This document shows positions 19,332 to 47,273 of a stretch of 64,000 nucleotides of DNA, in pieces. The notes beneath the pieces are model-generated. The model searched no databases and had not been told where the DNA came from. It saw nothing but the letters and a program-made list of their open reading frames with translations. A program made the translations under genes and the position numbers. Origin of the DNA: Streptomyces sp. 11x1 (GTDB lineage Bacteria; Actinomycetota; Actinomycetes; Streptomycetales; Streptomycetaceae); contig NZ_CP122458.1 of the NCBI RefSeq assembly GCF_032598905.1, positions 9,449,001 through 9,513,000 on the forward strand, in the 5' to 3' direction. The number at the start of each line of letters is the position of its first letter. Position 1 is the stretch's first letter.

Positions 19332-19349
19332 TTGACGATCCACCGTCAA
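19332..19349. promoter_or_regulatory. Inverted repeat TTGACG-N6-CGTCAA
   Basis: Perfect 6-bp arms 13 bases after the previous repeat. The left arm also resembles a -35 hexamer, so it may be a promoter element rather than an operator. Confidence 0.3.
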
Positions 19350-19738: not shown

Positions 19739-21187
<1,449 letters not shown>

Positions 21188-21218
21188 TGGGGCCTGCCAC
21201 GGACGAAAGGGCGATTCG

Positions 21219-24617: not shown

Positions 24618-24621
24618 GAGG

Positions 24622-28188: not shown

Positions 28189-28224
28189 GGCTGCTCCCTC
28201 TCCTGTGGGAGCCTTCGACGCTAT

Positions 28225-28241
28225 ATGAAAATGGATTCCAT
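28225..28241. promoter_or_regulatory. Zur-like box before the methyltransferase pseudogene
   Basis: ATGAAAATGGATTCCAT, 37 bp upstream of the methyltransferase ATG. It matches TGRAAAYSRWWTYCA with imperfect symmetry. The position suits repression of the minus-strand gene. Confidence 0.5.
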
Positions 28242-28303
28242 TGTGAGGGTATGGACTCGTGAGCTCGCCGGCCCCGTGCCGGCCGCGAGGCGCAGCTTGG
28301 CTG

Positions 28304-29503
28304 TCAGCGGCCCACGGGATCGCCTTCGGCGCCGTCGGTCTGCGTGCGAAGGATCATGTGGCCGCCGTGGCCCAGGGGGGTGTCCAGTTTCAATCGGGCT
28401 GTTTCACTGCCGGTTCGGGCGTCGAAGACGTGGACTTCACCGTGACCGCCGCGAGTGACGGCGACCCAGTCGGAACCCGGCGAGGCGGCCACCGCGCGCC
28501 GCTGGACGCCCTCCCAGGGGGTGCCGCCGCGGCGGGGTGCGCCGTCCATGGCGGGAAGTGGGACGCGGCGGGTGGTGTCGTCGGCGTCCAGGAGGACCAG
28601 TTCGTCGCCGTCCGGGTGAATGCGGGTGAACGCGGTGTGCTGTCGGGCGAGGGCCAGCCGGAAGACCAGGCCGGGGCCGAGTTCTGTCAGAGTGGTGCGG
28701 TTCGTCTCCAGGTCGTGGAGCCATGCCTGGTTGGTCCATTCCGGCCACCGCAGGGGGTCCGCGAGGCCGCCCCGCAGCGTCGACCACAGCGCCCGTCGTC
28801 GAGGGTCGAGTCGCAGGTACCAGCCCCGGGCAGGTGAATCCCAGGGGATCGTCTGCTCGGGGACAAGTGCGTCGCCCTCGCGGCGTGCCCTGTGCACGCC
28901 GTCACCCGTGGCCGCGAACACGTGCCCGAGGTACGGGTCTTGAGCGTCCCCGTGTCCGTCGTCCGGCAGCGGAAGGTGCGCGTGGGGCGTGACCGGAGGG
29001 CAGCCGGGCGGGGCCGCGAGCAGGTCGGCGAACCGGTGGACGGCCACCGTGCCGGGCTCCCGGTGCCGTAGGACGACCAGCGGATCACCGTGGCCCAGAA
29101 CCGTCACACCCGGTTCGCCGACACGCGTGCGTACCCGCGCGGCGTCTCCCGTCGTGAGGTCGACGACCGTCAGCAGGTCCGACCACGGCTCGCCGTTCTC
29201 GCCCAGGCCCGTTGTCACGGCGACCCACCGGCCCGACGGGTCGCAGGCCAGGTGTTCGGCCGGCACGGCGACCGGGATCGCGGTCTCCACCAGCTCGTCG
29301 CCGAAGGGATCGAGCACCAGCAACTCGCCCCTGCGGTCGTCGACGCAGGCCGCTCGCCCGCCCGGCAGTGCCAGGAACCCGGCATGTTCCGAGAGGTGAC
29401 GGCCGGTGAGGCGGCCCGTCTCGGTGCCGTCCGGCACGGTCAGCACGTGAATGGATCCCTGTACGTGGTCGGAGACGAGCAGTAGGGCAAGCGTGGCTGT
29501 CAT
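28304..29503 (-). CDS. Beta-propeller (WD40/YVTN-like) protein
   Basis: A 399-residue protein built from repeated blade-like segments (VLDPFGDELVETAIPV, VVDLTTGDAARV, VFDARTGSETARL). No signal peptide or membrane helix is visible from ATG 29503, which has GGAGG five bases upstream; an earlier ATG at 29515 adds four residues. Propellers near zinc or metallophore transporters can act as metallochaperones or binding proteins, but the lack of an export signal argues against the periplasmic AztD role. It is divergent from the importer operon and shares a Zur-like box with it, so it is probably induced together with zinc uptake. Confidence 0.75.
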   Translation of the reverse strand: MTATLALLLVSDHVQGSIHVLTVPDGTETGRLTGRHLSEHAGFLALPGGRAACVDDRRGELLVLDPFGDELVETAIPVAVPAEHLACDPSGRWVAVTTGLGENGEPWSDLLTVVDLTTGDAARVRTRVGEPGVTVLGHGDPLVVLRHREPGTVAVHRFADLLAAPPGCPPVTPHAHLPLPDDGHGDAQDPYLGHVFAATGDGVHRARREGDALVPEQTIPWDSPARGWYLRLDPRRRALWSTLRGGLADPLRWPEWTNQAWLHDLETNRTTLTELGPGLVFRLALARQHTAFTRIHPDGDELVLLDADDTTRRVPLPAMDGAPRRGGTPWEGVQRRAVAASPGSDWVAVTRGGHGEVHVFDARTGSETARLKLDTPLGHGGHMILRTQTDGAEGDPVGR

Positions 29504-29529
29504 CGGGGCCTCCATGAAAAGCGGATCTA

Positions 29530-29546
29530 TTGAAAACGATTATCAT
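29530..29546. promoter_or_regulatory. Zur-like box in the divergent propeller/importer promoter
   Basis: TTGAAAACGATTATCAT, whose core TGAAAACGATTATCA is close to actinobacterial Zur sites. It is 27 bp upstream of the propeller start and about 48 bp upstream of the substrate-binding protein start, so it could repress both directions. Confidence 0.6.
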
Positions 29547-29593
29547 GTATCTTCGGTGCGTTCCCGGGTCCATGAGAAGAAGCGAGGGCATCG

Positions 29594-30571
29594 ATGCTGC
29601 GCTCACCGTCGAGATTCGTCCGAAGCTGGATCACCGCAGCGCTAGTGGGCTCGGCGCTGGTCGGGTGTGGATCGTCCGCCGAACCGGCGAGTGAGAAGGC
29701 CGCCGCGGCCGGTCCGAAGACCGACGTCACCGTCGAACCCATCAAGGCCACACGGGCGTTGACCGACGCGGGCGGCGTCAAGATCTCTCTCGAGAAGGAG
29801 CCCGAGCGCATCGTCTGCCTGTTCGCGCTCTGCGACGACATCCTGACCGAGCTGGGCATCGTCCCCACGGCCACCAACAGCGCACTCCTCGCCCAGCCCG
29901 ACTTCCTGGGGGAGGAGAAGGCGAAGAAGGTCGACGTCATCCCCGGTGGGTTCATCGCGCCCGAGGTGGAGGTGATCCTCTCCCACAAGCCCGACCTCGT
30001 GATCGGCCTGGAGGACACCCACGGCAAGCTCGCCCCGGCCCTGAAGGACGCCACCACGTTCTGGCCCATGCAGCCCGAGACGTGGGAGGACAGCGTGGGT
30101 TACCTGCGTGATGTGGCCGCACTGACCGGCCGTGCCGCCGAGGGCGAGAAGGCCGAGAAGGCCTTCCGCACCAAGCTCGCCGAAGCCGAGAAGACCAGGA
30201 GCGACAAGACCGCGCTCATCATCTACGGCAGCGACGAGAACTTCGGCGTCGCCACCCCGGAGACCGACGTGGGCGCCAGCCTCTTCCCGAAGCTCGCCGA
30301 CTACCCTTGGAAGTCCCGGGGAGTGGAGGGCAGTTACAGCCTCGAAGAGATCCTCGCGGCGGACGTGGGCGTGCTGTTCGTCGAGACACTGAGCTTCGGC
30401 GAGGCGGACGGCAAGCTGTCGGAGAAGCTGGCGAAGAACCCCTTGTGGGGCAAGATCCCGGCGGTGAAGAACGGCGACGTCCACGAGGTGAACTCCGAGG
30501 TGTGGGCCAAGGGGCGCGGTACTCGTTCGCTGGGCATCATCCTCGATGAGGCCACGGCCGCACTGCGGTGA
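29594..30571 (+). CDS. ABC transporter substrate-binding lipoprotein (FecB/metallophore type)
   Basis: A 325-residue lipoprotein with an Arg-bearing signal peptide and lipobox LVGC (Cys25). The body is a helical-backbone periplasmic-binding fold (ERIVCLFALCDDILTELGI near the N-terminal lobe, ILSHKPDLVIGLED, and a C-terminal NGDVHEVNSEVW). This class binds ferric siderophores, haem, cobalamin or other chelates. It is not the ZnuA class that binds free zinc. It overlaps the permease gene (GTGA). With the Zur-like box, uptake of a zinc chelate is inferred. Confidence 0.9.
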   Translation: MLRSPSRFVRSWITAALVGSALVGCGSSAEPASEKAAAAGPKTDVTVEPIKATRALTDAGGVKISLEKEPERIVCLFALCDDILTELGIVPTATNSALLAQPDFLGEEKAKKVDVIPGGFIAPEVEVILSHKPDLVIGLEDTHGKLAPALKDATTFWPMQPETWEDSVGYLRDVAALTGRAAEGEKAEKAFRTKLAEAEKTRSDKTALIIYGSDENFGVATPETDVGASLFPKLADYPWKSRGVEGSYSLEEILAADVGVLFVETLSFGEADGKLSEKLAKNPLWGKIPAVKNGDVHEVNSEVWAKGRGTRSLGIILDEATAALR

Positions 30572-31818
30572 GAGCGCCCGTCACGACGCACACCGCGGAA
30601 GGCGACGCGACATCGGGCCCTCGGTGGTCGGTGCGCTTCGCAAGGGGATGGCAACCGCCCGTGGTGGTGACCCTGTTGGTCGCCGCCTCGGCCTGCGCGT
30701 TGAGCCTGGGCACGCCCTATGTCCCGCTGCACCGGCTGCCCGGTGCGCTGATGGACGCGGACAGCACGCTCGCCGGGATCGTCGTCACCGAGCTGCGGGT
30801 GCCCCGGCTGGTGCTGGCGCTTGTCGCCGGGGCCTGTCTGGGTGCGGCGGGGCTCGTGCTGCAGGAGGCGCTGCGCAACCCCTTGGCCGTTCCCGAGATG
30901 CTGGGTGTGTCGTCCGGTGCCGCGCTCGGGGTGGCCGCGCCACTGGTGCTGTCGGTGTCCCTCCCTGCCGCTGTCCAGCCCTTGCCGGCCATCGGCGGTG
31001 CCGCGCTCGGCGGCGGGATCACGCTGCTCGCCGCGGGGCTGGGGCGCAGTCCGTCCGCCGTGCTGCTCACCGGCGCCGCGGTCGCCGCCGCGTTGCAGGC
31101 CGCGCTGCTCGTGCTGATGGTGATGGCCGACCAGCTCGACCTCCAGCTGATCTACCGCTACCTGCTCGGCTCGCTCTCCGCCCGCACCTGGGACGACGTC
31201 ACCGGGCTGTGGCCGTGGCTGCTCGTCGCGGTCCCCGCGCTCGTGCTGTGCGCACCGGTGCTCTCGGTGTTGCGGCTCGGGGACGAGGACGCCGAGGCGC
31301 TGGGTGTGCGCGCCCAGCGGGCCCGGTTGGCCGCGCTGGCCATCGCCGTCGTGCTGATCGCACCCGTGACGGCCGTGTGCGGGCCGGTGGCGTGGGTCGG
31401 GTTCCTCGCTCCGCACCTGGCGCGGTGGTTCCATCCCGCGGCGGACGCGGTGCGCTGGCTGCCCTGGTCTGCCGCGTGGGGCGCTGTCGTCGTGGTCGTC
31501 GCCGATGTCCCGGCCCGCCTTGCGCTGGCGCCCGTGGAGACGCCGGTCGGCGCGTGGACGGCTCTGGTCGGGGTGCCCGCCGGGGTCGCCCTGCTCCGGT
31601 CGGGCAGCCGCAGGCCGACGGCCCGGAGCCGGGCGGCGGGCACCGCTGCCGCGGGCTCGGCGCCGCAGGGCGCTCACGCCATGCCGTCCAGTCCTTCGGA
31701 GGAGGAGCCTTCCATGGGGGCCCGGGAATGTGTCCGTCGAGGAGATCCGGGGAGCGACAGCCCTTCCGGTGTTTCCGCCGCACGCGGTGAGGCGACCGGG
31801 GCCGAGGAGGTCCGGTGA
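30568..31818 (+). CDS. FecCD-family ABC transporter permease
   Basis: A 416-residue permease with about nine to ten hydrophobic helices. It carries the BtuC/FecC signatures VPRLVLALVAGACLGAAGLVLQEALRNPLAVPEMLGVSSGA and GPVAWVGFLAPHLAR. The last 70 or so residues are a hydrophilic, Ser/Arg/Gly-rich cytoplasmic tail unusual for the family. Translation starts at a GTG overlapping the binding-protein stop, and the stop overlaps the next permease start. It forms a heterodimeric channel with the 31815 product for chelate import. Confidence 0.92.
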   Translation: MRAPVTTHTAEGDATSGPRWSVRFARGWQPPVVVTLLVAASACALSLGTPYVPLHRLPGALMDADSTLAGIVVTELRVPRLVLALVAGACLGAAGLVLQEALRNPLAVPEMLGVSSGAALGVAAPLVLSVSLPAAVQPLPAIGGAALGGGITLLAAGLGRSPSAVLLTGAAVAAALQAALLVLMVMADQLDLQLIYRYLLGSLSARTWDDVTGLWPWLLVAVPALVLCAPVLSVLRLGDEDAEALGVRAQRARLAALAIAVVLIAPVTAVCGPVAWVGFLAPHLARWFHPAADAVRWLPWSAAWGAVVVVVADVPARLALAPVETPVGAWTALVGVPAGVALLRSGSRRPTARSRAAGTAAAGSAPQGAHAMPSSPSEEEPSMGARECVRRGDPGSDSPSGVSAARGEATGAEEVR

Positions 31819-32822
31819 GCCGACGTTTCGCGGTACTCGGCGCAGTCACCGTCGTGTGCGCCGGCGTCGAACTGGTGGCCGGGCGCGGCATCTCCCCGGC
31901 CGTGGTCTGGGACGTCCTCGGCGGGGGCGGTGATGCGACGGAACGGCACATTCTGCTCCAACTCCGGCTGCCCCGCCTCCTGGTGGCCCTCGGCGCGGGG
32001 GCGTGCCTCGGTGTGGCGGGCCTGGTGCTGCAGTCGGCGCTGCGCAACCCGCTGGCCGGACCCGAGGTGACGGGTGTGACGCCGGGCGCCGTGCTCGGTG
32101 CCGTCGCCGCGACCGGTCTCGGACTCGCGGGGTGGCAATCGCCCCTCGCCGTGGTCGTCGCCGCGTGCGTGGGCGGCTGCGCCGGTGCCGCGCTGCTGTG
32201 GCTGCTCGCCGGACGCGGCAGCGGTGATCCCGCGCAGACAGCCGTGCACGGGGTGCTGGTGTCGGCGGTGCTCGGCGGACTCACCGCCATGGTGCTGCTC
32301 GTCGCACCGGGCGAACTCGGCAGCGTCGTGCAGTGGCTCGTCGGCACCACGGAGGGCCGGGTGTGGCAGCACTGGCACCTGTTGTGGCCGTGGGCGCTCG
32401 GCTGGGGTGCCGCGGCCTGGTTGCTGGCCGGGCCGCTGACCCTGCTGCGCTGCGGGGACGACATCGCCCGCGCCGCCGGGCTGTCCGCCGCCCGCGCCCG
32501 GGCACTCGCCCTGCTGTGCGCGGTGGCGCTGACAGCGGGTGCGGTGGCCGCCGTGGGGGCGCTGGGATTCGTCGGGCTGCTCGTGCCGCACCTCGCCCTG
32601 GCCGCCTTCGGCGCCGACCTGAGGGTGACCCTGCCCGGGGTCGCCCTCGTGGGCGCGGCCGTGGTGTGCGGGGCGGACGCGACGGCGCAGTTGTCCTCGC
32701 GGCTGCTGGCGGCCGCGCTGGACTCCGGGCGGCTCACGCTGCCGGTCGGGGCCCTCACCGCTTGCCTCGGGGCCGCCCTGCTGCTGCTCGTCGTGCGCCG
32801 CGCGCCGAGCCGTACGTTCTGA
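31815..32822 (+). CDS. FecCD-family ABC transporter permease
   Basis: A 335-residue permease of normal length. LRLPRLLVALGAGACLGVAGLVLQ, ALRNPLAGPEVTGVTPGA and GALGFVGLLVPHLA are the family signatures. GTG start overlapping the previous stop (GTGA). It pairs with the 30568 permease and is energised by the ATPase that follows. Confidence 0.92.
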   Translation: MSRRFAVLGAVTVVCAGVELVAGRGISPAVVWDVLGGGGDATERHILLQLRLPRLLVALGAGACLGVAGLVLQSALRNPLAGPEVTGVTPGAVLGAVAATGLGLAGWQSPLAVVVAACVGGCAGAALLWLLAGRGSGDPAQTAVHGVLVSAVLGGLTAMVLLVAPGELGSVVQWLVGTTEGRVWQHWHLLWPWALGWGAAAWLLAGPLTLLRCGDDIARAAGLSAARARALALLCAVALTAGAVAAVGALGFVGLLVPHLALAAFGADLRVTLPGVALVGAAVVCGADATAQLSSRLLAAALDSGRLTLPVGALTACLGAALLLLVVRRAPSRTF

Positions 32823-32842
32823 TGTCGACTGAAGGACAGAGC

Positions 32843-33664
32843 ATGACCGAGTCCGTGGGGATCCGCGCCGAGGGGGTCCACTTCGGCTACCCCGGCCAAC
32901 CCGTGTTGCGCGGCGTCGACATGACCGTCGAACCGGGTGAGCTGACCGCCCTCATCGGCCTCAACGGCTGTGGGAAGTCAACCCTGTTGCGGCTCGCCGC
33001 CGGGCTGCTGCGGCCGGACGAGGGGCGTGTGCTGCTCGCCGGGGACGACCTCGCCCGGCTGTCCCGGCGTGCCACCGCCCGACGGGTCGCGCTGCTGCAC
33101 CAGTCGGCTCCGGCCGTCCCGGGCATGACCGTACGTCAGCTCGTCCGGCAGGGGCGCTACGCGGCGCGCGGCCCGCTCGGCATGCTGCGCGAGGGCGACG
33201 ACCCCGTCGTACGCCGCGTACTGCGCGACGTAGGTGTGGAGCAGTGGGCCGAGCGTGATGTCGACGCGCTGTCCGGGGGCGAGCGGCAGCGGGTGCGGCT
33301 CGCGATGGCGCTCGCCCAGGGCACCCGGGTCCTGTTGCTGGACGAGCCGACCACCTACCTGGACCTGCACCACCAGCTCGACGTGCTGCAGACGGTGGTC
33401 CGGCTGCGTGAGGAACGCGGCCTCACCGTGGTGATGGTGCTGCACGACCTGGCCCACGCCGCCCGGTTCGCCGAGCGGATCGTCGCGCTGCGCGACGGCC
33501 GGGTGGTGGCCGACGGCACGCCGAAGGAGGTCGTCACCCCGGGACTGCTCGCAGAGGTCCTCCGGGTGGCCGGCCGGGTCGGCCGGGATCCCGAAGGCGG
33601 CTGGCCCGTGTGTTACCCAGATCACCCTCTCCCGGCTCTAGAATATGAAAATCATATTCATTAG
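32843..33664 (+). CDS. FecE-type ABC transporter ATP-binding protein
   Basis: A 273-residue ATPase: Walker A GLNGCGKST, Q-loop LLHQSAP, signature LSGGERQRVRLA, Walker B VLLLDEPTTYLD and the switch His in VMVLHDLAHA. ATG 32843 has AAGGA six bases upstream; ATG 32822, overlapping the permease stop, is a possible longer start. The last codons (LEYENHIH) are encoded by the Zur-like palindrome at 33645, so the operator for the downstream RiPP genes sits inside the end of this gene. Confidence 0.93.
   Translation: MTESVGIRAEGVHFGYPGQPVLRGVDMTVEPGELTALIGLNGCGKSTLLRLAAGLLRPDEGRVLLAGDDLARLSRRATARRVALLHQSAPAVPGMTVRQLVRQGRYAARGPLGMLREGDDPVVRRVLRDVGVEQWAERDVDALSGGERQRVRLAMALAQGTRVLLLDEPTTYLDLHHQLDVLQTVVRLREERGLTVVMVLHDLAHAARFAERIVALRDGRVVADGTPKEVVTPGLLAEVLRVAGRVGRDPEGGWPVCYPDHPLPALEYENHIH
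33645..33661. promoter_or_regulatory. Zur-like box before the RiPP precursor gene
   Basis: ATGAAAATCATATTCAT lies within the perfect 8-bp inverted repeat GAATATGA-AAA-TCATATTC (33641-33659). Its core TGAAAATCATATTCA differs at one base from the Streptomyces Zur consensus I recall (TGAAAATCATTTTCA). It overlaps the 3' end of the ATPase gene and ends 61 bp before the precursor ATG. This is the best of the four boxes. Confidence 0.7.
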
Positions 33665-33722
33665 AGTTCCTGGTGCGGCGCTCACCAGAACGCCGTATCT
33701 CCCTGATGAAGAAGGAGAGTTC

Positions 33723-33836
33723 ATGAACACCGAGAAGGTCTTCGCACCGATCGCCGACCCCGGTCAGCTGGCTCACGCCTCGGCCACGCACTCCAACGCC
33801 CTCGTCGAGAACCCCTTCGAGGACACCGAGGAGTAG
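33723..33836 (+). CDS. Putative RiPP (azol(in)e) precursor peptide, 37 residues
   Basis: A short gene with an excellent ribosome binding site (AAGGAG) starting at ATG 33723. The product opens MNTEKVFAPIADPGQ. It then has an Ala/His/Ser/Thr segment, A17-H-A-S-A-T-H-S-N25, and ends in an acidic tail. Ser20, Thr22 and Ser24 alternate with Ala and His and are candidate oxazoline/oxazole sites; there is no Cys. His18, His23 and the acidic tail are potential metal ligands. It lies directly before RRE/E1-like, YcaO and SagB-type genes, and has its own Zur-like box upstream and an attenuator downstream. I do not recognise the peptide family. Leader/core boundary and modifications are inferred. Confidence 0.8.
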   Translation: MNTEKVFAPIADPGQLAHASATHSNALVENPFEDTEE

Positions 33837-33858
33837 ACGAGGCCCAGCGCCCTCGTGA

Positions 33859-33892
33859 GTGGGCCCGCCCGTCACCTTGCGGGCGGGCCCAC
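33859..33892 (+). terminator. Attenuator-type hairpin between precursor and modification genes
   Basis: GTGGGCCCGCCC pairs perfectly with GGGCGGGCCCAC (12 bp, extendable by one G-C pair), with a short loop, 22 bases after the precursor stop. Partial termination here would give many precursor transcripts per enzyme transcript, a common RiPP arrangement. Confidence 0.75.
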
Positions 33893-33928
33893 GCCCTTCC
33901 AAGGCCCCCTTTCTCCAGGAGGATCGAC

Positions 33929-34771
33929 GTGTCCCGCAGCCAGCTCGTGCCCGGTGTCGAGGTCGTCGCCGTACCCGGGCGGGGTCTCGCCGTCCGCACG
34001 GTCCAGGGTGAGTTCCTCAGCGTCAGGACGGGCGACGCGGACGTGGAGGCCCTGCTGTCCCGCCTCTCCGGTACGGCCGCGGACGAGCCGGACGACGAAC
34101 TCGACCGCATCGTCCGAGCCTTCGAGGGCGCGGGGTACCTCGCGGGTGAAGCGCGGCGCCCGCGCTGGCCCGCCGATCGCCGTGACATCCGGCTGCTGGG
34201 GGACACGGTCCTGACCGAACCACTGGCCGCACTCCTGCGTGCGCTGGGCGCCGAGCCGCGCACGGCCGCGCACGGCAGCACGTCACCGTCACCTGACGAC
34301 CTGTCCACCGGAGATCCCGCCGCCGTCGTGTGGTGTCTCGACGGGCCCGTGCCCGAAGGGCTGTGGGACACAGCCGACCGGCTGCCCGAGCGCGGCATCG
34401 CCTGGCTGCGCTGCCACCGGGAGGGCTGGCAGGCATACATCGAGCCCCTCGCGGCCGCTGCCGGGGACGTCACCTCGGCACACGTCCGGGCCCGTCGGCT
34501 CGCCGCCACCCCCGCGCACCGGGAGCTGGCCGCCTACTGGAGCGGACCTCGTACGTCCGGTGCGCCGGTTCACCTCACCGCGCCCGCCGCCGGGCTGCTG
34601 GCCGCCCTGCTCGCCGACGACCTCAGCCGGTGGATCACCGGCGCGACCGACACGGACGCCCTCCCCGCCCGGCGCCGGCTCCGGCGCGTCGACCTGCGCA
34701 CGCTGACCGTCACCGAGCACCCCGTGCTGCCCGTCCCCGACGTCGCCCGCATGCCGAAGCAGGCCGGATGA
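33929..34771 (+). CDS. TOMM E1-like / leader-peptide-binding protein
   Basis: A 280-residue protein. The first 85 or so residues form a RiPP-recognition-element-like module (PGVEVVAVPGRGLAVRTVQGEFLSV, then a helical segment). The rest is a divergent, short E1/ThiF-like region without the CxxC zinc motifs or an obvious nucleotide site. In thiazole/oxazole-modified microcin pathways such proteins bind the leader and present the core to YcaO. GTG 33929 has AGGAGG upstream, and the stop overlaps the hydrolase start (ATGA). Assignment rests on the N-terminal pattern and the YcaO/SagB context. Confidence 0.7.
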   Translation: MSRSQLVPGVEVVAVPGRGLAVRTVQGEFLSVRTGDADVEALLSRLSGTAADEPDDELDRIVRAFEGAGYLAGEARRPRWPADRRDIRLLGDTVLTEPLAALLRALGAEPRTAAHGSTSPSPDDLSTGDPAAVVWCLDGPVPEGLWDTADRLPERGIAWLRCHREGWQAYIEPLAAAAGDVTSAHVRARRLAATPAHRELAAYWSGPRTSGAPVHLTAPAAGLLAALLADDLSRWITGATDTDALPARRRLRRVDLRTLTVTEHPVLPVPDVARMPKQAG

Positions 34772-36249
34772 CGCCGTCCACGACGGCCGTCGAAGGGCTC
34801 GCCACCGACACCCACCTCCCGGACGGCGACGGCCCCTTTCCGGCCGTCCTCATCCGCACGCCCTACGACCGGACACGACACCGCGCCGAGCTGCGCGGCT
34901 GGGCCCGCCGCGGGTTCGCCGCACTGGTCCAGGACGTACGGGGCCGACACGCGTCGCCGGGGGAGTGGCACCCGTACGAGAACGAGGCCGCCGACGGAGC
35001 GGCGACCGTCCGCTGGATCCGCCGACAGCCATGGAGCGACGGGCGGTTGGTCGCCGTCGGCGCCTCCTACGCCGCCCACTGCGCGCTCGCGCTCGCGCTC
35101 GACGCGCCCGTGGACGCCCGGCCCGACGCCGTCATCGCAGCCGTGCCCGCGCTGGGCACCGCCGAGACGGCCCGCGAGCCCGCCGGCGTGGAACGGCTGC
35201 TGGCCCGCGCCGGATGGTGGGCGGCCCACGGCGACCGGCCGGACTCCGACGACAACGCCCTGGACAAGGCCCTCGCCGCGGACCCCGGCCTGCTCACCCA
35301 TCTGCCGCTGACCGGCCTCCCCGAGCGGCTCGGCCGGAGCCTGCCGTCGTGGCCCGGCCTGTGGAGCCACCGCGAACGCGGCCGGCTTCTCTCGGGAGCG
35401 GAGCACGCCGGGATGCCCCTGCTCGCGGTGGGCGGCCACCACGACCACTTCACCGAGGACACCGTGGCGCTGTGGCGCCGCTGGGGCGGTTCGTCGGCCC
35501 GGCTGTTGCTGGGACCCTGGGGGCACGGCCTCGTCGCCGAGCCCGGACCCGACGCCGATCCGGCGCACGGGGTGAGTCTCGGTGAGCTTTACGTGCGATG
35601 GTCCCGCCGCGCTCTCGCCGGGGATCTCGCTCCCGGGACCGGTGGCGTGGTCGGCCTGGGCGGCAGCCCTCTGTGGGTGCCCGCCGACGCAGAGGGAGAG
35701 CCGCGCACGCACAACGTACGTCTGCTGCACGGCTCCTCCTTCACGGCCGATCCCGAACACCCCGTGTCGTCCGAGAACCTGGCCGTCCCCGAGAACGGTC
35801 CGCCCGACCGCTGTCTGCTGGTGACTCCGCCGCTGCCGCGTCCGCTGGACGTGGTCGGCCCCGCGGAGGTGCGGCTGCGTGCCACCGCGCACACGCCGTC
35901 CGCCGACTGGGCCGTCCGGCTCGTCGCACTCACCCCCGAGGGGGTGGCCCAGCGGCTCGCCGTCGGCGTCGTCCGGCGCGAGGAACCACCAGGAAGTCAG
36001 GCCGAGTTCACCGTAGGACTCGGCCGGCTCGCACGGCGGCTGCCGGCGGGCACCCGGCTCCGCCTGGAGATCGCCGGGCACCACTTCCCGGCCCACGCCC
36101 GCAACCCCCACACCGGCGACAACCCGGTCACGGCCACCCGGCTGCTCCCCTCCCGGCGCGAGATCGACGCCGGGAGCGTGGCGCTCCGGCTGCCCGTGCT
36201 CCGTTCCCGTCCCACGCCCGCCCTTCCCGCAGAGGAGATCCCGCGATGA
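34768..36249 (+). CDS. CocE/NonD family alpha/beta hydrolase (X-Pro dipeptidyl-peptidase-like)
   Basis: A 493-residue hydrolase: PFPAVLIRTPYDRT opens the catalytic domain, GRHASPGEWHPYENEAADGAATVRWIRRQPWSDGR is the family signature, the nucleophile Ser is in VGASYAAHC, and His is in GPWGHG. The C terminus is the jelly-roll domain. The family cleaves esters, acyl amides or Xaa-Pro dipeptides. Here it could trim the leader, whose Ala8-Pro9 and Asp12-Pro13 pairs are of interest, but this is speculation. It overlaps both neighbours by ATGA. Confidence 0.88.
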   Translation: MTPSTTAVEGLATDTHLPDGDGPFPAVLIRTPYDRTRHRAELRGWARRGFAALVQDVRGRHASPGEWHPYENEAADGAATVRWIRRQPWSDGRLVAVGASYAAHCALALALDAPVDARPDAVIAAVPALGTAETAREPAGVERLLARAGWWAAHGDRPDSDDNALDKALAADPGLLTHLPLTGLPERLGRSLPSWPGLWSHRERGRLLSGAEHAGMPLLAVGGHHDHFTEDTVALWRRWGGSSARLLLGPWGHGLVAEPGPDADPAHGVSLGELYVRWSRRALAGDLAPGTGGVVGLGGSPLWVPADAEGEPRTHNVRLLHGSSFTADPEHPVSSENLAVPENGPPDRCLLVTPPLPRPLDVVGPAEVRLRATAHTPSADWAVRLVALTPEGVAQRLAVGVVRREEPPGSQAEFTVGLGRLARRLPAGTRLRLEIAGHHFPAHARNPHTGDNPVTATRLLPSRREIDAGSVALRLPVLRSRPTPALPAEEIPR

Positions 36250-37625
36250 CAGCGCTGCCGCTGGAAGCTCTCGTCGACCCCGTCTGCGGCATAGTCCGCG
36301 ACGTCAAGCCCGTCGAGCACCCCGTGGGCGCACCGCCCCGCTACACCGCGCTCACCGCCGAGATCGCCGACGCCCGCAGACTCGGCCTGTGGCCCGCCGA
36401 CCGGGTGTCGCTGGGCACCACCTTCGGCGACCCCGAAGGCGCGCGCACAGCCGCGATAGCGGAAGGGATAGAGAGATACTGCGGCAACCGGGTGCCGCCG
36501 CCCGGCCACCCCGACGCCCCCCTGCGTGCCACGGCCGCCGAACTGGCCGAGAAGGGGCTGCGGCTGTACGGGCCGGACGAACTGCCGGCCTACGCCGACT
36601 GGCAGTACGCCCGGGAGAGGTTCCCCTACCGCCGGCTCACCGCCGACACGCCGTCGTTGTGGGCGCGTGGCACCGAGCGGCTGCCCGAGGGCCGGACCGC
36701 CGAGGTCTGGGCGCCCGTCGCCCTCACCCACCTCAACTGGCGTCAGGGAGAGCTGCGCTCGCTGCCGCGCACCCACCACCTCAACTACGCGGGCATCGCC
36801 ACCGGGCAGGGCTTCGACGACGCGGCCGAGCGCGGCCTGCTGGAGATCGTCGAACGCGACGCGCTCGAACTGTGGTGGCACCTCGACGGCCCTGCCCGCG
36901 GCATCGACCCGGGTACCGTGCCAGGCCTCACCGACGACCTCGCCGGATCCGCGCTCGACGTCCACCTCGTCGAGATGCCTTCCGAGTTCGCCCCCTGCAT
37001 GGCCGCGCTCGTGCACGACCCCCGGCTCGGCCTGTACGCCTCCGGTTTCGCCTGCAAGTACGACCCGGCCGAGGCCGCCCGCAAGGCCGTCCTCGAAGCC
37101 GCCCACACCTGGGTGTTCACCCGAGGTCTCACCGACCCCGACGGCTGGGTGTTCCAGGCCGTCGAGGCCGGGCTGCTCGCGCGCGGGCTGTACCTGGACC
37201 ACCGCGAGGACGGCCGCTACCTCGACGTGTGCGGCGAACAGTTCGAGCACGTACGGGACCTGGGCGCGCACGTCCAGGTGTGGCTGGACGAACGGATGGC
37301 GCCCGAGGCCCGGCGGTTCACCGACCCCGCGCTCGGGACCGTCTCCATCGACGCGGTCGAGCCCGGCAGCCGGGACCGGCTGGAACGCGTGCTCCACGAG
37401 GGCGGCCACCGCGTCATGACGTTCGACCTCACCACCGAGGACGTGGCCGAGACGTCCCTGCGCGTCGCCCGGGTCCTCGTCTCCGGGCTCCTGCCCAACG
37501 CCCCCGCCGCCTTCGGCTACTTCGGCTGCCCGCGCCTGGCCGACGCCGCCGTCGCCCGCGGCTGGCGGACGACCCCACCGAGCGCACCGGAGGACTTCAC
37601 GCTGGCTCCTCCGCCGCACATGTGA
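36246..37625 (+). CDS. YcaO-domain cyclodehydratase-type enzyme
   Basis: A 459-residue YcaO protein. ATP/Mg-binding acidic residues are visible in AIAEGIERYCG (Glu73, Glu76) and ERGLLEIVERDALELWW (about 195-212). YcaO enzymes activate the peptide backbone amide with ATP to form thiazolines, oxazolines, amidines or thioamides. The C terminus ends in a proline-rich tail, PPPHM, not the PxPxP end of many azoline-forming members, so the reaction type is open. ATG overlaps the hydrolase stop, and the stop overlaps the dehydrogenase start. The partners around it (RRE/E1-like, SagB-type) favour azoline formation on the precursor at 33723. Confidence 0.92.
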   Translation: MTALPLEALVDPVCGIVRDVKPVEHPVGAPPRYTALTAEIADARRLGLWPADRVSLGTTFGDPEGARTAAIAEGIERYCGNRVPPPGHPDAPLRATAAELAEKGLRLYGPDELPAYADWQYARERFPYRRLTADTPSLWARGTERLPEGRTAEVWAPVALTHLNWRQGELRSLPRTHHLNYAGIATGQGFDDAAERGLLEIVERDALELWWHLDGPARGIDPGTVPGLTDDLAGSALDVHLVEMPSEFAPCMAALVHDPRLGLYASGFACKYDPAEAARKAVLEAAHTWVFTRGLTDPDGWVFQAVEAGLLARGLYLDHREDGRYLDVCGEQFEHVRDLGAHVQVWLDERMAPEARRFTDPALGTVSIDAVEPGSRDRLERVLHEGGHRVMTFDLTTEDVAETSLRVARVLVSGLLPNAPAAFGYFGCPRLADAAVARGWRTTPPSAPEDFTLAPPPHM

Positions 37626-38782
37626 AGGGCCTCCTCCCCGTGGACCTCCTTCCCGAGCGCGTGGACCTCGTCACCGCCCTCGCCCGCGCCCGTTCGCCCG
37701 AGCCGCCTGGCCCGGACACGTCCCCCGGTCCCGTCGTCCGCGCCTGGCCGGGACCGCCGCACGCCCTGCCGCAGGCCGCCCCCGGGCAGCTGGACCTGGA
37801 CCGGCTGCTCCGCCTCTCCCTGGCCGCATCGGACGGCTCCGGGCGGCTGCGGCCCGCCCCCTCCGCCGGCGGGCTGCACCCGGTGGACGCCGAACTCGTC
37901 GTGGGCACCGGCTGCCCGCTGCCACCCGGGCGCTACGGCTACGACCCGCTGCGCCACCGGGTGCACCGCGTCGGTTCCGAAGGTTCCGAAGTCGGCGGCA
38001 CGCTGCCCGGGGCGACCGTCGAACTGTCCGTCACCCCACGGCGCACGGTGTCCCACTACGGCCACCGCGCCTGGCCGCTGATGCTGCTGGACACCGGACA
38101 CGTCGCCGCTGCGCTGTGGCTCGCGGCCCGTGCGCTGGACATGGCGGAGCCCGCACTCCGCTTGGACGGGCTGAACGAGAACCCAATGGCCGCACTGCAC
38201 TTCCTCCTGCCTCAGAGAGCAGGCCGGGTTTCTCGGCCCGAGGGGGCGAGCCCGCCCATGGACGTGCCCGCCCCCGGCGAGCTGCTGGCCCGCCGCAGCG
38301 CAGCGCCACCGCTCACCGGCACCCCGTCGCGGGACGTTCTGCGTGCGGTGCTCGCCACCGCCGTCCAGGCGAGCGCCGGTGAGTTCGCCTGGTGCGCGGC
38401 CGTCGGCGAACCGCAGCCCGAACTGGTCGAGCCGGCCCCCGACGGCACCCTTCGGCGGCTCGCAGCGGGCGAGGCCCGACCGACACTCGCCGTATGGGCC
38501 GCAGGCCAGGCGTGGATCGCGGACGCGGGCGCCGTCCTCCTCGCCTACGGCTGCCCGGCAGACGCCGACGCCGCGCTGATCCGCCGAACGCACCTACGAG
38601 CCGGCTTCGCCGTCCACCTCGCCCACCTGACCGCCGTACGGCGTGGGCTGGACGCCCGCCCCGTCGGCTCCTGGCAGCAGGCAGACCTGGGCGCCGCCCT
38701 CGGCGCCCCACCGGGCCGGGACTGGATCGTCCACGGCCTGGCCCTCGGCACCACCCACCCCGACGAGGAGAAGCCCTCGTGA
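37622..38782 (+). CDS. SagB-type FMN nitroreductase-family dehydrogenase
   Basis: A 386-residue protein in SagB style. The FMN motif RPAPSAGGLHPVDAELVV is clear, the middle has VSHYGHRAWPLMLLDTGHVAAAL, and a second nitroreductase-like half follows (GQAWIADAGAVLLAYG). SagB enzymes oxidise azolines to aromatic azoles using FMN. Its presence implies at least one stable oxazole in the product. GTG 37622 overlaps the YcaO stop. It overlaps the first ABC exporter gene at its end. Confidence 0.88.
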   Translation: MKGLLPVDLLPERVDLVTALARARSPEPPGPDTSPGPVVRAWPGPPHALPQAAPGQLDLDRLLRLSLAASDGSGRLRPAPSAGGLHPVDAELVVGTGCPLPPGRYGYDPLRHRVHRVGSEGSEVGGTLPGATVELSVTPRRTVSHYGHRAWPLMLLDTGHVAAALWLAARALDMAEPALRLDGLNENPMAALHFLLPQRAGRVSRPEGASPPMDVPAPGELLARRSAAPPLTGTPSRDVLRAVLATAVQASAGEFAWCAAVGEPQPELVEPAPDGTLRRLAAGEARPTLAVWAAGQAWIADAGAVLLAYGCPADADAALIRRTHLRAGFAVHLAHLTAVRRGLDARPVGSWQQADLGAALGAPPGRDWIVHGLALGTTHPDEEKPS

Positions 38783-40518
38783 TCGTCCACCCCGAGCTGC
38801 GCCGTGCCGCACGGCACGCACGGCGCCCCCTGCTCGCGGCCACCCTCCTGCAGGCGGCCGTCACCCTCACCCACCTCGCGCAGGCCGTACTGCTGGCAGT
38901 GACCCTCGCCGACCTGGCCCGTGGCGAAACGGACCGGCTCCCGATACTCCTCGGCGCGGCGCTCGGCGTCGTCGCCGTACGCGCCGGGCTCGGCAACTGG
39001 CAACGGCGCACCGCCACCCGAGCCGGGGCCGGAGTCAGGATCGCTCTGCGGGACGAACTCCTCACCCGCCTCGGACGGCTGGGCCCCGCGCACCTGACCA
39101 CCGCCCGCGCCGGAGCCGTCCGCACCACCCTCGTCGACGGCGTGGAGGGCGTCGACGCCTACGTCTCCCGCTACCTGCCCCAGCTCCTGCTCACCCTCAC
39201 CGTGCCGCCCCTGCTGCTCGCAGCCCTGGTGGTCATCGAACCGGCCGCCCTCCTCGGCCTCGTACCCGCCCTCCTGCTAGCCCTCTTCGGACCCCGCGCC
39301 TGGGACCGGCTCCTGGCCCAGCGTGGCAAGGAACACTGGGACACCTACGAGGAACTGGGCGCCGACTACCTCGAAGCACTGCAGGGCATGCCCGCCCTGC
39401 GGGCCTCAGGTGCCGTCGGGCGCACCCGGGAGAGGCTGGAGAAGCGGTCGGCGGCGCTGCACCGGGCCACCGTCGCCAAGCTGCGCGTGTCCCTCGTCGA
39501 CACCGGCCTCACCGACCTGGCGATCCAGGGCGGCACCGCGGCAGCCGCGCTGCTGGCCTGCTGGTCGGCCATCACCGGATCCACCACGGCGACCGGCACC
39601 TACCTGGTGCTGCTCCTGGCCTCCGAGTGCTTCCGACCGGTCCGCGACCTGTCCCGCGAATGGCACGCCGGCTACCTGGGCGTATCGGCCGCCGACGGGC
39701 TCGCGGCGCTGCGCAACGCCGAACCCGCCGTCCCCGACACGGGAACGGCACCTGCCCACCGGTCGGACCCGCCCGAACTGCGCTTCGAGAACGTCCAGTT
39801 CACCTACGACAGCGCCGAGACACCCGCGCTCCGCGGCGTCACCTTCACCGCCGAGGCGGGACGCACGACCGCGATCGTCGGCCCGTCCGGCGCCGGCAAG
39901 TCCACGCTCCTCGCCCTGCTCCTGCGCCACCACGACCCGCAGGACGGCCGGATCACCCTCGACGGCCACGACGTGACCGCGTACGCGCTCGACTCACTGC
40001 GGCAGGGCATCGCCGTCGTCTCCCAGGAGACCTACCTCTTCCACGCCACCATCGCCGACAACCTGCGCCTGGCCCGGCCGGACGCCACGGACGACGAGCT
40101 GACACACGCCACACGAACCGCCGGCATCCACGACGAGATCACCGCCCTCCCCGACGGCTACGCCACCGTCCTAGGCGAACGGGGCGCCACCCTGTCCGGC
40201 GGCCAGCGCCAACGGCTCGCCCTCGCCCGCGCCCTCCTGGCCGACGCTCCGGTGCTCGTCCTCGACGAGGCCACCAGCGCGGTCGACGAACGCCGCGAGG
40301 CGGACATCATCCGCGACCTGCTCGACGCCGCAGGCGGCCGGACCATCCTGGTGGTCGCCCACCGGCTCGCCGCCGTCCGGCACGCCGACCGCATCGTGGT
40401 GCTGGACGGCGGACGCGTGGACGCCCTCGGCGAGCACACCACCCTCGTCGAAGCCGGGGGCGTCTACGCCAAGCTCGTCACGGCGGGCGACGCTCACCAG
40501 GAAGGGCTCGCCGCATGA
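38779..40518 (+). CDS. ABC transporter, fused permease-ATPase (exporter type, first half)
   Basis: A 579-residue half-transporter: six hydrophobic helices (residues about 15-310), then an ATPase with Walker A GPSGAGKST, signature LSGGQRQRLALA and Walker B VLVLDEATSAVD. GTG start overlaps the SagB-type stop. It resembles CydD/CydC-like and peptide exporters and probably forms a heterodimer with the next gene. Export of the modified peptide is inferred from operon position. Confidence 0.9.
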   Translation: MIVHPELRRAARHARRPLLAATLLQAAVTLTHLAQAVLLAVTLADLARGETDRLPILLGAALGVVAVRAGLGNWQRRTATRAGAGVRIALRDELLTRLGRLGPAHLTTARAGAVRTTLVDGVEGVDAYVSRYLPQLLLTLTVPPLLLAALVVIEPAALLGLVPALLLALFGPRAWDRLLAQRGKEHWDTYEELGADYLEALQGMPALRASGAVGRTRERLEKRSAALHRATVAKLRVSLVDTGLTDLAIQGGTAAAALLACWSAITGSTTATGTYLVLLLASECFRPVRDLSREWHAGYLGVSAADGLAALRNAEPAVPDTGTAPAHRSDPPELRFENVQFTYDSAETPALRGVTFTAEAGRTTAIVGPSGAGKSTLLALLLRHHDPQDGRITLDGHDVTAYALDSLRQGIAVVSQETYLFHATIADNLRLARPDATDDELTHATRTAGIHDEITALPDGYATVLGERGATLSGGQRQRLALARALLADAPVLVLDEATSAVDERREADIIRDLLDAAGGRTILVVAHRLAAVRHADRIVVLDGGRVDALGEHTTLVEAGGVYAKLVTAGDAHQEGLAA

Positions 40519-42266
40519 GCACCACCACCGACCGCGGTAGCGCCGACACCCCCGCACGCGGCTCACTGCGCGCCCTGCTCCCCGCCCTCGCCGGGCACCG
40601 GCTCATGATGGCCCGCACGTGCGGCGCCGCACTCATCGAACAGGGCACACTCGTCACGTTGCTGACGCTGGCCGCTCACACCGTCGGAACCGCCGTCATC
40701 GAGGACCGCGCCCCCTCAGCCGGTACGGTCACCGCGCTCATCGTCCTCGTCCTCGTACGCGCCTTGATGACCTGGCGCGAGATGGACCTCAGCCACGACC
40801 TGGCCTACCGGGTGCTGGCCGAACTGCGCGTGCGGGTCTTCGACGGGCTCGCCCGCAGCGCGCCCGCCCGCGTCGCCGGCCGGCGCAGCGGGGACCTTGC
40901 CGCCACCGCCATGGCCGACGTGGAGGCACTGGAGTTCTTCTACGCCCACACCACGGCCCAACTTCTCGCCTCCGGGGCGGTGTTCACCGGCGGCGCCGTT
41001 GTTCTGGCCACGCTGGAGGCATGGCTGCTGGCGGCGGTGCTGCCGGTCGCCGCGCTGCTCGCCGTGGCGCCCTTCGCCGACATGCCCGGACGCGCGGCGC
41101 GCGGAGCCCGCACCCGGGCGGCCGCCGCCAAGCTGTCGGCCGACACCGTGGAGACCGTCGACGGGCTGCGTGAGCTGCTCGCCTTCGGAGGGCTGACCGA
41201 GCGGCGCCGCCGACTCGCCGAACAGGGCCGACAGGTGGGGGAGGCCCAGAGGGCCGAGGCCACTTGGGAGGCCATGGCCGCCGCGGTCCGCGACCTCCTC
41301 ATCGTGCTCGCGGTCCTCGGCGTGGTGGCCACCGCGGCACAGTCCGTGACCTCCGGGCGGCTGCACGGCGCGTGGGCCCCGGCGGCGATGGCGCTGGCCC
41401 TGTCGGTGCTGGGCCCCGTCGCCGAGTCGGCCAGGGCACTGAGCCAGGCAGTGGGACTGCGCGCCGCGGCCGCCCGCGTCGGCGCGGCCGTGCGGGCCCC
41501 CGCCCTCGCCCCCCCGCCCGCCTCACCCCGCCCCCTTCCCTCCGGCCCGCTGGGCGTCCGGCTGCACCAGGTGAGCTTCGACTACGGCGGTCAACCCGTG
41601 CTCAACGGAGTCGAGCTGACAGTCCACGCAGGACAGACACTCGCCCTGGTCGGTGTCTCGGGGGCAGGCAAGTCGACCTGCGCCCACCTGCTGGCCCGCT
41701 TCTGGGACCCGTCCAAGGGCGCCGTCCACCTGATACCCGGCGACGGCGAGCCTGTCGACGTACGGGACCTGAGCGATGCCGAACTCCGACGAGCCGTCGC
41801 CGTGGTGGGCCAGGACACCCCCCTCTTCCACGGAACCCTCGCCGACAACCTGCGGCTCGCCGTACCAGAGGCGGACGACGGCCTCCTCGCCGCAACCGCC
41901 CGGCTGTGCGGCGTCGACCGCATCGCCACCATGGACACCCTCGTCGGCGAGCGCGGCTCCACCCTCTCCGGCGGCCAGCGCGCCCGGATCGCCCTCGCCC
42001 GCGCGCTGCTCGCGCAGCCCCGAGTCCTCGTCCTCGACGAGACCACCGCCCACCTCGACAACGCAGGCGACGCCCAACTCGCCACCGCGCTCGGCAAGGA
42101 GAGCCGCACCACGATCGTCATCGCCCACCGCCCCGCCACCATCCGCCGCGCCGACCGCATCGCCGTCCTCGAAGCCGGCCGCATCACGGAGGAAGGCACC
42201 TGGGACGAACTCACCACCCGCCCCGACAGCGCACTGGGCCGTGTCCTAGCCGTCACCCCCTCCTGA
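40515..42266 (+). CDS. ABC transporter, fused permease-ATPase (exporter type, second half)
   Basis: A 583-residue half-transporter with a helical membrane domain and an ATPase: Walker A GVSGAGKST, signature LSGGQRARIALA, Walker B VLVLDETTAHLD. The residue after the Walker B Glu region differs from the first half, as in heterodimeric exporters. ATG overlaps the previous stop (ATGA). It is the last gene of the operon that starts with the importer; a hairpin terminator follows 268 bp downstream. Confidence 0.9.
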   Translation: MSTTTDRGSADTPARGSLRALLPALAGHRLMMARTCGAALIEQGTLVTLLTLAAHTVGTAVIEDRAPSAGTVTALIVLVLVRALMTWREMDLSHDLAYRVLAELRVRVFDGLARSAPARVAGRRSGDLAATAMADVEALEFFYAHTTAQLLASGAVFTGGAVVLATLEAWLLAAVLPVAALLAVAPFADMPGRAARGARTRAAAAKLSADTVETVDGLRELLAFGGLTERRRRLAEQGRQVGEAQRAEATWEAMAAAVRDLLIVLAVLGVVATAAQSVTSGRLHGAWAPAAMALALSVLGPVAESARALSQAVGLRAAAARVGAAVRAPALAPPPASPRPLPSGPLGVRLHQVSFDYGGQPVLNGVELTVHAGQTLALVGVSGAGKSTCAHLLARFWDPSKGAVHLIPGDGEPVDVRDLSDAELRRAVAVVGQDTPLFHGTLADNLRLAVPEADDGLLAATARLCGVDRIATMDTLVGERGSTLSGGQRARIALARALLAQPRVLVLDETTAHLDNAGDAQLATALGKESRTTIVIAHRPATIRRADRIAVLEAGRITEEGTWDELTTRPDSALGRVLAVTPS

Positions 42267-42533
42267 ACCCGGACCAGTGCATGGCGCGACGGGGTGGTGC
42301 CGGTCCTCGACCCGTTGGCCGTACTGACCGCCCGGGGGCGGTCGTCCCCGGCCCACCTGTGAATCCCGCTCACCGCTCCCGCAGGGGGAAGCGGGCGGGC
42401 AACGGCATTGAAGGCGGGCCAGTCCGGTTCTGGCCCGGGCATACCCCGGAACAGCTGGTCAGACGTGGGGCAGCGATGGGGCATATCGGGGCAAGGTCAT
42501 ATTTCGGCTCACAGTTCAAGTGTGCCCCCTCAA

Positions 42534-42569
42534 GGGCGCCTGACGGGCATCTGCCCAAGTCAGGCGCCC
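42534..42569 (+). terminator. Hairpin terminator downstream of the RiPP/exporter operon
   Basis: GGGCGCCTGAC pairs perfectly with GTCAGGCGCCC (11 bp). A nested GGGC/GCCC pair lies in the loop, and the stem is followed by an ATTTCTCT stretch. Confidence 0.75.
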
Positions 42570-43534
42570 ATTTCTCTGCGCCTGGAAGAAGCCGAGTTTC
42601 TTCGGCGAGTACGACACCAGCAGGTTCTTGGTCTGCTGGTGGTACACGCTCACCGTCGCCTCTGACGCGTAAATAGGTCCAGGTCAGGGTGGGTGTGGGC
42701 AGGGCTGGGTGCCCGGTGGTCGTCGCGGCCGCCGGGTGCGCCGTTCCGGGAGGACCAGGGCGAATCAGGAATTCTGACGCACGTGCTTCGCAGCAGCACT
42801 CCACGGTTCCCGTGGGCGGTCCCCAGCACCATGCTGACCTGCGAGCTCACCGGCATCACAGAGGCTTCGGTTTCGGCCGGAACGAACCAGCTCAGCGTCC
42901 CGTACCCCCATCAGCCCACGTCAGGGCAGACAGAAGCACCCCCGGCGCGCGCCACGGCATTTACCACGCCCCCGGCGCGCACCGAAGGTGCGCTGGATCG
43001 CGGCCCTGTGACAAACGGTGGAATCGTCTGCTGCTGAGCCGACTTGGTCCGCACCTGGTCCGGGTCTTGGTCCGTGATCTGTGGTGTTGGCGTGCGAGTC
43101 CTGCGGTACGACATGGCACAGGTAGTCAGAACCGTCTTCTGGCGTCCACGTGGTACGAAACGGTGCGGTTGCGTGGGCGGAATCTTTGAGATCCGGGAGC
43201 GTTCTACGGGGTTGGTGACACCGGCGTGACATCTGAGGTGCTTCTGCCGCCGTGCACCGACGGGGAGTCTGCGTGGACGGGGACCTGATGCGACGGGCAT
43301 CGCGGGGCTGCTCCGGCGATGCCCGTCGTGCAGTTGGACAAGGCGCCCCGGCAGGACCAGTCTGTGCAGCTCGTGCCGATCGATGCCGTTTCCTGGCTCG
43401 CATTCCCTGATGTGCTCTTGGGGCCCGCTCACCAGCGGGCGCCCTGCTCGGCTGACGGACTGGGCGTCGGAGGTGTCGCGGCCAGGTGCACACGCGTCTT
43501 GGTGCTGATGGCACGAGGTTCCGTCGTTACGGCA
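42570..43534. other. Decayed intergenic region without a supported gene
   Basis: Nearly 1 kb of lower-GC, non-coding-looking DNA. Open frames on either strand are short or have atypical codon use. Together with the remnant at 43535 it looks like the scar of an integrated or deleted element. Confidence 0.55.
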
Positions 43535-46977: not shown

Positions 46978-47273
46978 CGCAGGCACCCCGCGATGTACTG
47001 GACGAGTTGTCCGACGGTCAGTCCGATGATGTCGGAGAGTTCGAGCGAGGCGAACCAGGCGGGGAAGTCGACCCGGTCGCCGTAGCGCCCGCCCAGCTCG
47101 GCGGTGAGCGTGACCAGGTCGATGGACTCCAGGTCGAGGTCCTCCACGAAGCGGGTGTCGGAGGTGATCGGGGTGTCGTCCAGTTCGAGGTCGTCGAGGA
47201 CCGTGTGCAGCGCGTCGGTGATATCGGAGAGGACGGCGGCGTACGCTGGGCCGGTGGTGGCGGGGCTGGTCAT
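46974..47273 (-). CDS. Stand-alone acyl carrier protein
   Basis: A 99-residue ACP with the phosphopantetheine site in FVEDLDLESIDLVTL (Ser) and the usual four-helix pattern. Its start overlaps the stop of the KS-AT-DH-PPTase gene (ATGA). It may receive the finished chain from the megasynthases for the hydrolase or glycosyltransferase, or act as an extra carrier for the second megaenzyme, which has no ACP domain of its own. Confidence 0.9.
   Translation of the reverse strand: MTSPATTGPAYAAVLSDITDALHTVLDDLELDDTPITSDTRFVEDLDLESIDLVTLTAELGGRYGDRVDFPAWFASLELSDIIGLTVGQLVQYIAGCLR

Follow-up and report, generated by a model that had tools for sequence, protein, structure and literature searches.

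The 64-kb window analyzed here (9.449-9.513 Mb of the 10.67 Mb genome of Streptomyces sp. 11x1, which consists of 2 contigs) contains a gene cluster for a ribosomally synthesized and post-translationally modified peptide (RiPP) that is, beyond reasonable doubt, a member of the streptamidine (ami) family. Two Zur-type palindromes that are conserved in the related loci suggest that the cluster is very probably controlled by the zinc-responsive regulator Zur. RiPP clusters of this kind are known; what is new are the conserved Zur boxes and the regulation that they imply, the predicted resemblance of AmiX to the zinc chaperone AztD, and a hairpin between amiA and amiB. The explanation that we consider best overall, with only modest confidence, is that this streptamidine-family cluster belongs to the zinc-starvation regulon and serves zinc acquisition.

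In Streptomyces albidoflavus J1074, the streptamidine cluster consists of amiF1-F4, amiA, amiB, amiC, amiD, amiE, amiT1 and amiT2, with amiX upstream (PMC8442711; MIBiG BGC0002115), and both this gene content and this order recur in the window. The precursors belong to one family and share the HxSxxH core frame, with the core HASATH in 11x1 as opposed to HLSATH in J1074. Given that the precursor scores above the cut-off of NF040714, an undescribed RiPP class is ruled out. A sequence-only reading of this DNA had placed a FecBCD-type importer, the precursor and the RiPP genes where our coordinates and family matches put them as well; its assumption that the pathway had not been described does not stand, the pathway being that of streptamidine. 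The published gene order is retained in every sufficiently long Streptomyces locus with the exception of L063, which lacks amiF1-F4. The precursor was detected in 51 of the 392 Streptomyces genomes (11x1 included) and in 4 of the 396 genomes of a phylum-wide sample, 2 of these outside Streptomyces; the family has been reported to include 237 precursors and more than 90 clusters of this layout, with over 230 related clusters (PMC8442711). The related precursor family NF040715 had no match in the 396 genomes or in the controls, so that the motif B clusters fall outside this comparison. The YcaO protein AmiD has a proline-rich C-terminus that ends in APPPHM, with P455, P457, H458 and M459 invariant in an alignment of 10 sequences.

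The predicted core of AmiA (residues 18-23) is followed by the conserved stretch SNALVENPF. The alignment of the 51 Streptomyces precursors shows no change in the two core histidines, Ser3 or SNALVENPF, and core position 2 is occupied by L, D, A or Q; E is found at this position outside the genus. The sequence-only reading had pictured the core as a possible oxazole/imidazole ligand set for zinc. The core does not resemble that of an azole-forming linear azol(in)e-containing peptide (LAP), which is rich in heterocyclised Ser, Thr or Cys: it is short and free of Cys. An azole ligand set is rejected as unlikely because the characterized relative, streptamidine, contains a six-membered amidine and no azole (PMC8442711).

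Zur-type boxes in the ami loci

Chromatin immunoprecipitation (ChIP) of Zur in S. coelicolor yielded the 15-bp motif tGaNNatSatNNtCa (PMC5472717). We scored every position of 50 Streptomyces loci and the window against TGAAAATGATTTTCA and accepted as sites those with at least 11 of 15 matches. A box was found within 250 bp upstream of amiF1 in 47 of the 50 loci that have this gene; in L083 and L084, it is found in the amiX-amiF1 interval at a distance of 265-305 bp from amiF1, and L056 is unassessable because its contig begins 89 bp before this gene, so that the box is present in 49 of the 49 assessable loci (the 51st locus, L063, has no amiF genes). The box upstream of amiA was detected in all 51 loci. 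Outside these two promoter windows (50 relatives plus the window, ~0.82 Mb), 29 positions reach at least 11/15, 11 at least 12 and 1 at least 13, and 4 of the 29 are the true, more distant sites of L083 and L084. The columns of the amiF1 box carry 1.7 bits of information, compared to 0.3 upstream and 0.63 downstream. In a set of named loci, which are the best 80 of 180 relatives, are all titled Streptomyces save for one Microtetraspora, and overlap the first set (24 of the 80 share an exact 150-mer with it), the amiF1 box was found in 69/69 and the amiA box in 75/75 assessable loci, the remainder lacking the gene or being cut off; the background comprised 55 positions with at least 11/15 in 1.53 Mb. 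This conservation across Streptomyces bears out the proposal of the sequence-only reading that an importer of the metallophore type and a YcaO RiPP pathway are joined in one Zur-marked operon. The palindromes that it had noted before the importer and before the precursor are both there, although the second one is part of the 3'-terminal amiF4 sequence (the stop codon ends at 33664) and not of a spacer. That reading had missed the divergent amiX, which shares box 1 with amiF1, and the strong hairpin that separates amiA from amiB.

Scans with the reversed consensus gave 0/50 sites before amiF1 and 0/51 before amiA; among four other control 15-mers, three gave 0 and 0 and one gave 0 and 3/51, and a chance origin of the boxes is rejected on the basis of these scans. 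As a positive control, the scan was applied to the znuA loci of 30 ami-carrying genomes and recovered exactly two sites in each of the 30; two znuA Zur sites have been published in S. coelicolor (PMC5472717). A matrix derived from the znuA sites, applied at 10 bits, retrieves 51/51 amiA sites and 47/50 amiF1 sites; the background at this threshold amounts to 51 positions in 0.82 Mb. In the genome of 11x1, znuA, znuC, znuB and a FUR-family gene are arranged in a row, and the FUR-family gene matches 3mwm, the structure of S. coelicolor Zur (3.3e-78). The znuA box of this genome, TGGAAACGATTGTCA, differs from box 1 in two positions. The exact pattern TGANAANNATTNTCA occurs at 4 places in the 10.67 Mb, one of which is box 1, and the backward control at 0. 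Two other strong Zur-type boxes in this genome are located before a gene for an SBP_bac_5 binding protein (L033, 3624-3638) and near a gene that looks similar by eye (L031, 3633-3647); the genes at these boxes are possible further importers of zinc or zinc chelates.

Outside Streptomyces, we analyzed 10 ami loci from seven genomes in two families and from a plasmid of Rhodococcus rhodochrous on which amiA is annotated; these loci are not all independent, given that L091-L093 come from one genome (G521) and that L216 and L217, like L218 and L219, are genus mates. In these loci, amiX and amiA are divergent neighbors, and the importer genes, where seen, are located elsewhere. A box with 11-13 of 15 matches lies 80-106 bp before amiA in 9 of the 10 loci, compared to 0-0.006 per 200 bp in shuffled sequence; the exception is L093, where the best score is 8 and amiX is broken. 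The presence of the same gene order with Zur boxes in other actinomycetes, which the sequence-only reading had put forward for checking, is accordingly seen across Streptomyces, whereas outside this genus the amiA box is kept and the layout is different. Because the boxes outside Streptomyces stand between genes, the amiA box does not appear to be kept merely through its overlap with the amiF4 coding sequence. A search for AmiF1 in three genomes that lack amiF1-F4 beside amiA identified one weak match (29% identity, G118) and none in G762 and G521. In G521, the precursor is present three times, in ami loci that are nearly identical (L091, L092, L093) and two of which are at contig ends; one piece of the L093 amiX contains a stop. 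On the R. rhodochrous plasmid pNit, an amiX homolog (43% identity) that is not listed full-length in the gene table is located at 10706-11803 of L208; the gene table of a second plasmid, which has a YcaO match of 32% identity, lists no ami cluster.

Taken as a whole, Zur control of the cluster is well supported by these comparisons, and the function of the cluster is now testable.

Possible zinc acquisition and the alternatives

FecBCD-type importers take up metal chelates, and in this cluster such an importer is found together with genes for biosynthesis and export, that is, a zincophore-type gene set, with zinc control indicated by the boxes only. We infer the following scheme. In zinc-replete cells, Zur would occupy two operators and keep amiX, amiF1-F4 and amiA-amiT2 switched off; under zinc starvation, it would leave both, and the precursor, the enzymes, the exporter, the importer and AmiX would be made, the hairpin after amiA probably keeping the precursor transcript more abundant than that of the enzymes. 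AmiB, AmiD and AmiE, together with AmiC, would process the core, HASATH, to a His-Ala amidine peptide, the predicted Ala2 analog of streptamidine, with an [M+H]+ of ~605.279 as calculated from the published 647.326. AmiT1/T2 would export this peptide, which, as such or in a longer or oxidized form, may capture zinc via the two invariant histidines and be re-imported by AmiF1-F4; zinc itself or its complex with the peptide would be handled by AmiX.

AmiX is a constant companion of these genes, with tblastn matches in all Streptomyces loci that reach that far and in 10 of the 10 loci outside the genus. No Pfam or NCBIfam family matches it above the cut-off, and no sequence relative in the PDB scores below E 0.06. 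Its structural model is a β-propeller (predicted local distance difference test, pLDDT, 87.8), for which the top structural match in the PDB is AztD, a zinc metallochaperone (PMC6689063). The zinc site of AztD is formed by three pore histidines; the 15 AmiX sequences compared share four invariant histidines (40, 147, 184 and 354), which are at most candidates for such a site. The Cys pair of AztD (Cys214 and Cys231 in P. denitrificans) is unmatched, there being no invariant cysteine in the 15 sequences. By eye, the start of AmiX in the window shows no signal or lipobox, and most of the aligned relatives are incomplete at the start.

Several observations weigh against Zur-controlled zinc acquisition. 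With the znuA-site matrix, 45/51 amiA sites but only 25/50 amiF1 sites reach the score of the weakest znuA site. Box 2 overlaps coding sequence in most loci, being wholly inside amiF4 in 39 of 50, across its stop in 7 and after the stop in 4. A consensus scan of 28200-42700 found no sigma-70-like promoter near the boxes. Outside Streptomyces, a box near the importer genes is present only in L090 (with the same place in L175) and L093; L208 has none upstream of these genes, none lies upstream of the visible importer part in L215 or of the weak ATPase matches in L218 and L219 within the retrieved stretch, and in L216 and L217 no importer was found in the retrieved stretch. One of the matches in the 11x1 genome (L032) stands between convergent gene ends, which indicates that lone pattern matches can be meaningless, so that the argument rests on conservation. 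AztD is ahead of other propellers by a modest margin, and accordingly the similarity of AmiX to it is one of fold alone. When seven metal ions (Fe, Co, Cu, Mg, Mn, Ni and Zn) were tested with purified streptamidine, no binding was seen; an amiD mutant behaved like the wild type under metal starvation, and deletion of amiF1-F4 abolished production (PMC8442711). The last result is unexpected for a pure uptake role unless a promoter was lost.

Such a loss is conceivable because box 2, and probably the amiA promoter with it, is located at the 3' end of amiF4 in the window and in most of its relatives; the deletion may have removed this promoter, in which case no biosynthetic role of the importer is required. 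Other zinc importers could mask a mutant phenotype. Furthermore, the hexapeptide that was isolated might differ from the active form, considering that AmiE is required although streptamidine shows no oxidation and that dehydrated HLSAT and HLSA were also detected (PMC8442711). These last two points are reasons for a retest and not evidence of zinc binding. On balance, a role of the cluster in zinc acquisition seems somewhat better than an even bet. It is a more speculative idea, to which we give appreciably less credence, that the streptamidine family makes ribosomal zincophores in which the ligand is longer or more oxidized than the hexapeptide, the latter being a trimmed remnant, so that the published zinc test would have addressed the wrong species. 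If true, this would explain the necessity of AmiE, the invariance of SNALVENPF, the shortened side products and the AztD-like AmiX.

The authors of the streptamidine study raised a metal hypothesis on the basis of the importer genes, and their metal tests were negative (PMC8442711). The conserved Zur-type boxes point to zinc shortage as the likely cue and as the condition under which product, binding and phenotype should be retested. The main text of the paper on streptamidine contains no mention of Zur, and neither the Zur boxes nor the AztD-like fold of AmiX nor the amiA-amiB hairpin is reported in that text (PMC8442711). Literature searches for streptamidine with zinc and for Zur-regulated pathways with YcaO returned no report of a link, most subscription papers and supplements being outside their scope, and streptamidine is not named in the passages that we checked of papers on metallophores and regulon mining.

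A serious rival, albeit an unlikely one in our estimate, is that the product is a signal or a competition peptide made under zinc shortage, i.e., a Zur-controlled secreted amidine that is no chelator and acts on kin or neighbors, with AmiF1-F4 taking it up for sensing or recycling. Bacterial peptide importers can serve signals, and the Zur boxes are compatible with this possibility as well. The failure of streptamidine to bind metal is readily accommodated, and its authors, for whom the role of the compound was unknown, considered signaling or development (PMC8442711); however, the same study found no antibacterial or antifungal activity, in assays that are not described as zinc-limited. An importer of the FecBCD type would be unusual for a peptide signal, and the resemblance of AmiX to a zinc chaperone also speaks against it. 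It appears improbable that a different member of the Fur family (for peroxide, nickel or something else) uses the boxes as its operators and that the cluster does not respond to zinc. Fur-family boxes have in common an A/T-rich 7-1-7 palindrome, certain ami boxes read TGATAATGATTATCA, the consensus for Bacillus Fur, and only half of the amiF1 boxes fall within the znuA score range. Nevertheless, the motif is that of Zur ChIP in S. coelicolor (PMC5472717), and both the exact recovery of the znuA boxes by the same scan and the close similarity of box 1 to the znuA box of 11x1 argue for Zur. An iron system, with the importer taking up an iron chelate and the peptide as the iron ligand, is very improbable: the top models for the importer proteins are Fe(3+)-dicitrate and hydroxamate transporters and the streptamidine authors named AmiF1-F4 iron transporters, but every one of these model matches is below the curated cut-off, the chrome azurol S (CAS) assay and iron binding were negative (PMC8442711), and Zur-type boxes are present instead of a good iron box, the best match to the actinobacterial consensus being 8-10/19 before amiF1 and 8-11/19 before amiA, so that iron control is rejected.

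Several known systems come close to the ami cluster. Coelibactin is a product of nonribosomal peptide synthetases (NRPS) and ethylenediamine disuccinate (EDDS) is a small aminocarboxylate, whereas the ami product is ribosomal. Like the ami cluster, as predicted here, the pathways for coelibactin in S. coelicolor and for EDDS in Amycolatopsis japonicum are Zur-controlled actinomycete small-molecule pathways with a proposed secretion/uptake cycle (PMC6103462); in contrast to these, the product of the ami relative has been tested for zinc binding and none was found (PMC8442711). Methanobactin and bulbicupramide, which are ribosomal copper ligands, are likewise ribosomal peptides with a metal-handling role; their ligands are a thiooxazole or an oxazolone-thioamide (PMC12538549), as opposed to the YcaO amidine pathway, the zinc-type regulation and the putative metal binding of ami.

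The amiA-amiB hairpin and the organization of the locus

A GC-rich hairpin separates amiA from amiB. Among 50 loci (L035-L084), 40 contain a perfect stem of at least 12 bp, and the longest stem in 500 shuffles is 11 bp; the stem letters vary among the loci while the pairing is preserved. In the window, the hairpin is not accompanied by a U tract. A possible role is to determine how much precursor is made relative to the enzymes.

The genes amiF1-F4 are separated by 4-bp overlaps or a 20-bp gap, and 58 bp lie between amiF4 and amiA. A scan for terminators gave no hit. AmiF1 has a lipobox-like LVGC, as judged by eye.

Features of the ami locus (coordinates are positions of the 64-kb window)
Feature	Coordinates	Strand	Description	Evidence
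amiX	28304-29503	-	β-propeller protein, divergent from amiF1, box 1 common to both; alternative start 29515	
box 1	29531-29545		Zur-type palindrome between amiX and amiF1, TGAAAACGATTATCA	13/15 to TGAAAATGATTTTCA
amiF1	29594-30571	+	FecB/FhuD-type substrate-binding lipoprotein	PF01497 (Peripla_BP_2) 55.2 bits
amiF2	30568-31818	+	FecCD permease	PF01032 231.9 bits
amiF3	31815-32822	+	FecCD permease	PF01032 223.6 bits
amiF4	32843-33664	+	import ATPase	PF00005 117.1 bits; top NCBIfam model FecE, under its cut-off
box 2	33647-33661		Zur-type palindrome in amiF4 3' end, before amiA, TGAAAATCATATTCA	14/15 to TGAAAATGATTTTCA
amiA	33723-33836	+	37-residue precursor	NF040714 63.8 bits, cut-off 40
hairpin	33859-33892	+	GC-rich, amiA-amiB intergenic; possible attenuator or RNA stabilizer	
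amiB	33929-34771	+	RiPP recognition element (RRE)/E1-like partner, similar to leader-binding proteins of thiazole/oxazole-modified microcins (TOMM)	TIGR03882 25.7 bits, under 36.9 cut-off; role from PMC8442711
amiC	34768-36249	+	CocE/S15-type hydrolase, proposed leader removal	PF02129 120.0 bits; role from PMC8442711
amiD	36246-37625	+	YcaO protein	PF02624 132.3 bits; SagD-type model 198.5 bits, under 219.25 cut-off
amiE	37622-38782 (searched as 37625-38782)	+	SagB-like dehydrogenase	PF00881 36.5 bits; SagB model 48.4, under 78.4
amiT1	38779-40518	+	ATP-binding cassette (ABC) half-transporter	PF00664 + PF00005
amiT2	40515-42266	+	ABC half-transporter	PF00664 + PF00005

Beside amiX, the minus strand carries genes for pyridoxal phosphate (PLP) enzymes (23412-27491), namely a cysteine-desulfurase-like protein, a cysteine-synthase/SbnA-like protein with a rhodanese domain and a diaminopimelate-decarboxylase-like protein, all under the NCBIfam cut-offs. 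At 17516-22604 there is a glycosidase set in which GH62 and GH10 enzymes are accompanied by a protein that carries ricin-type lectin domains. On the other side of the cluster, at 47270-58839, there are two long minus-strand genes, the first of which encodes a protein of 1551 aa with ketosynthase, acyltransferase, dehydratase and phosphopantetheinyl-transferase domains and the second a protein of 2305 aa.

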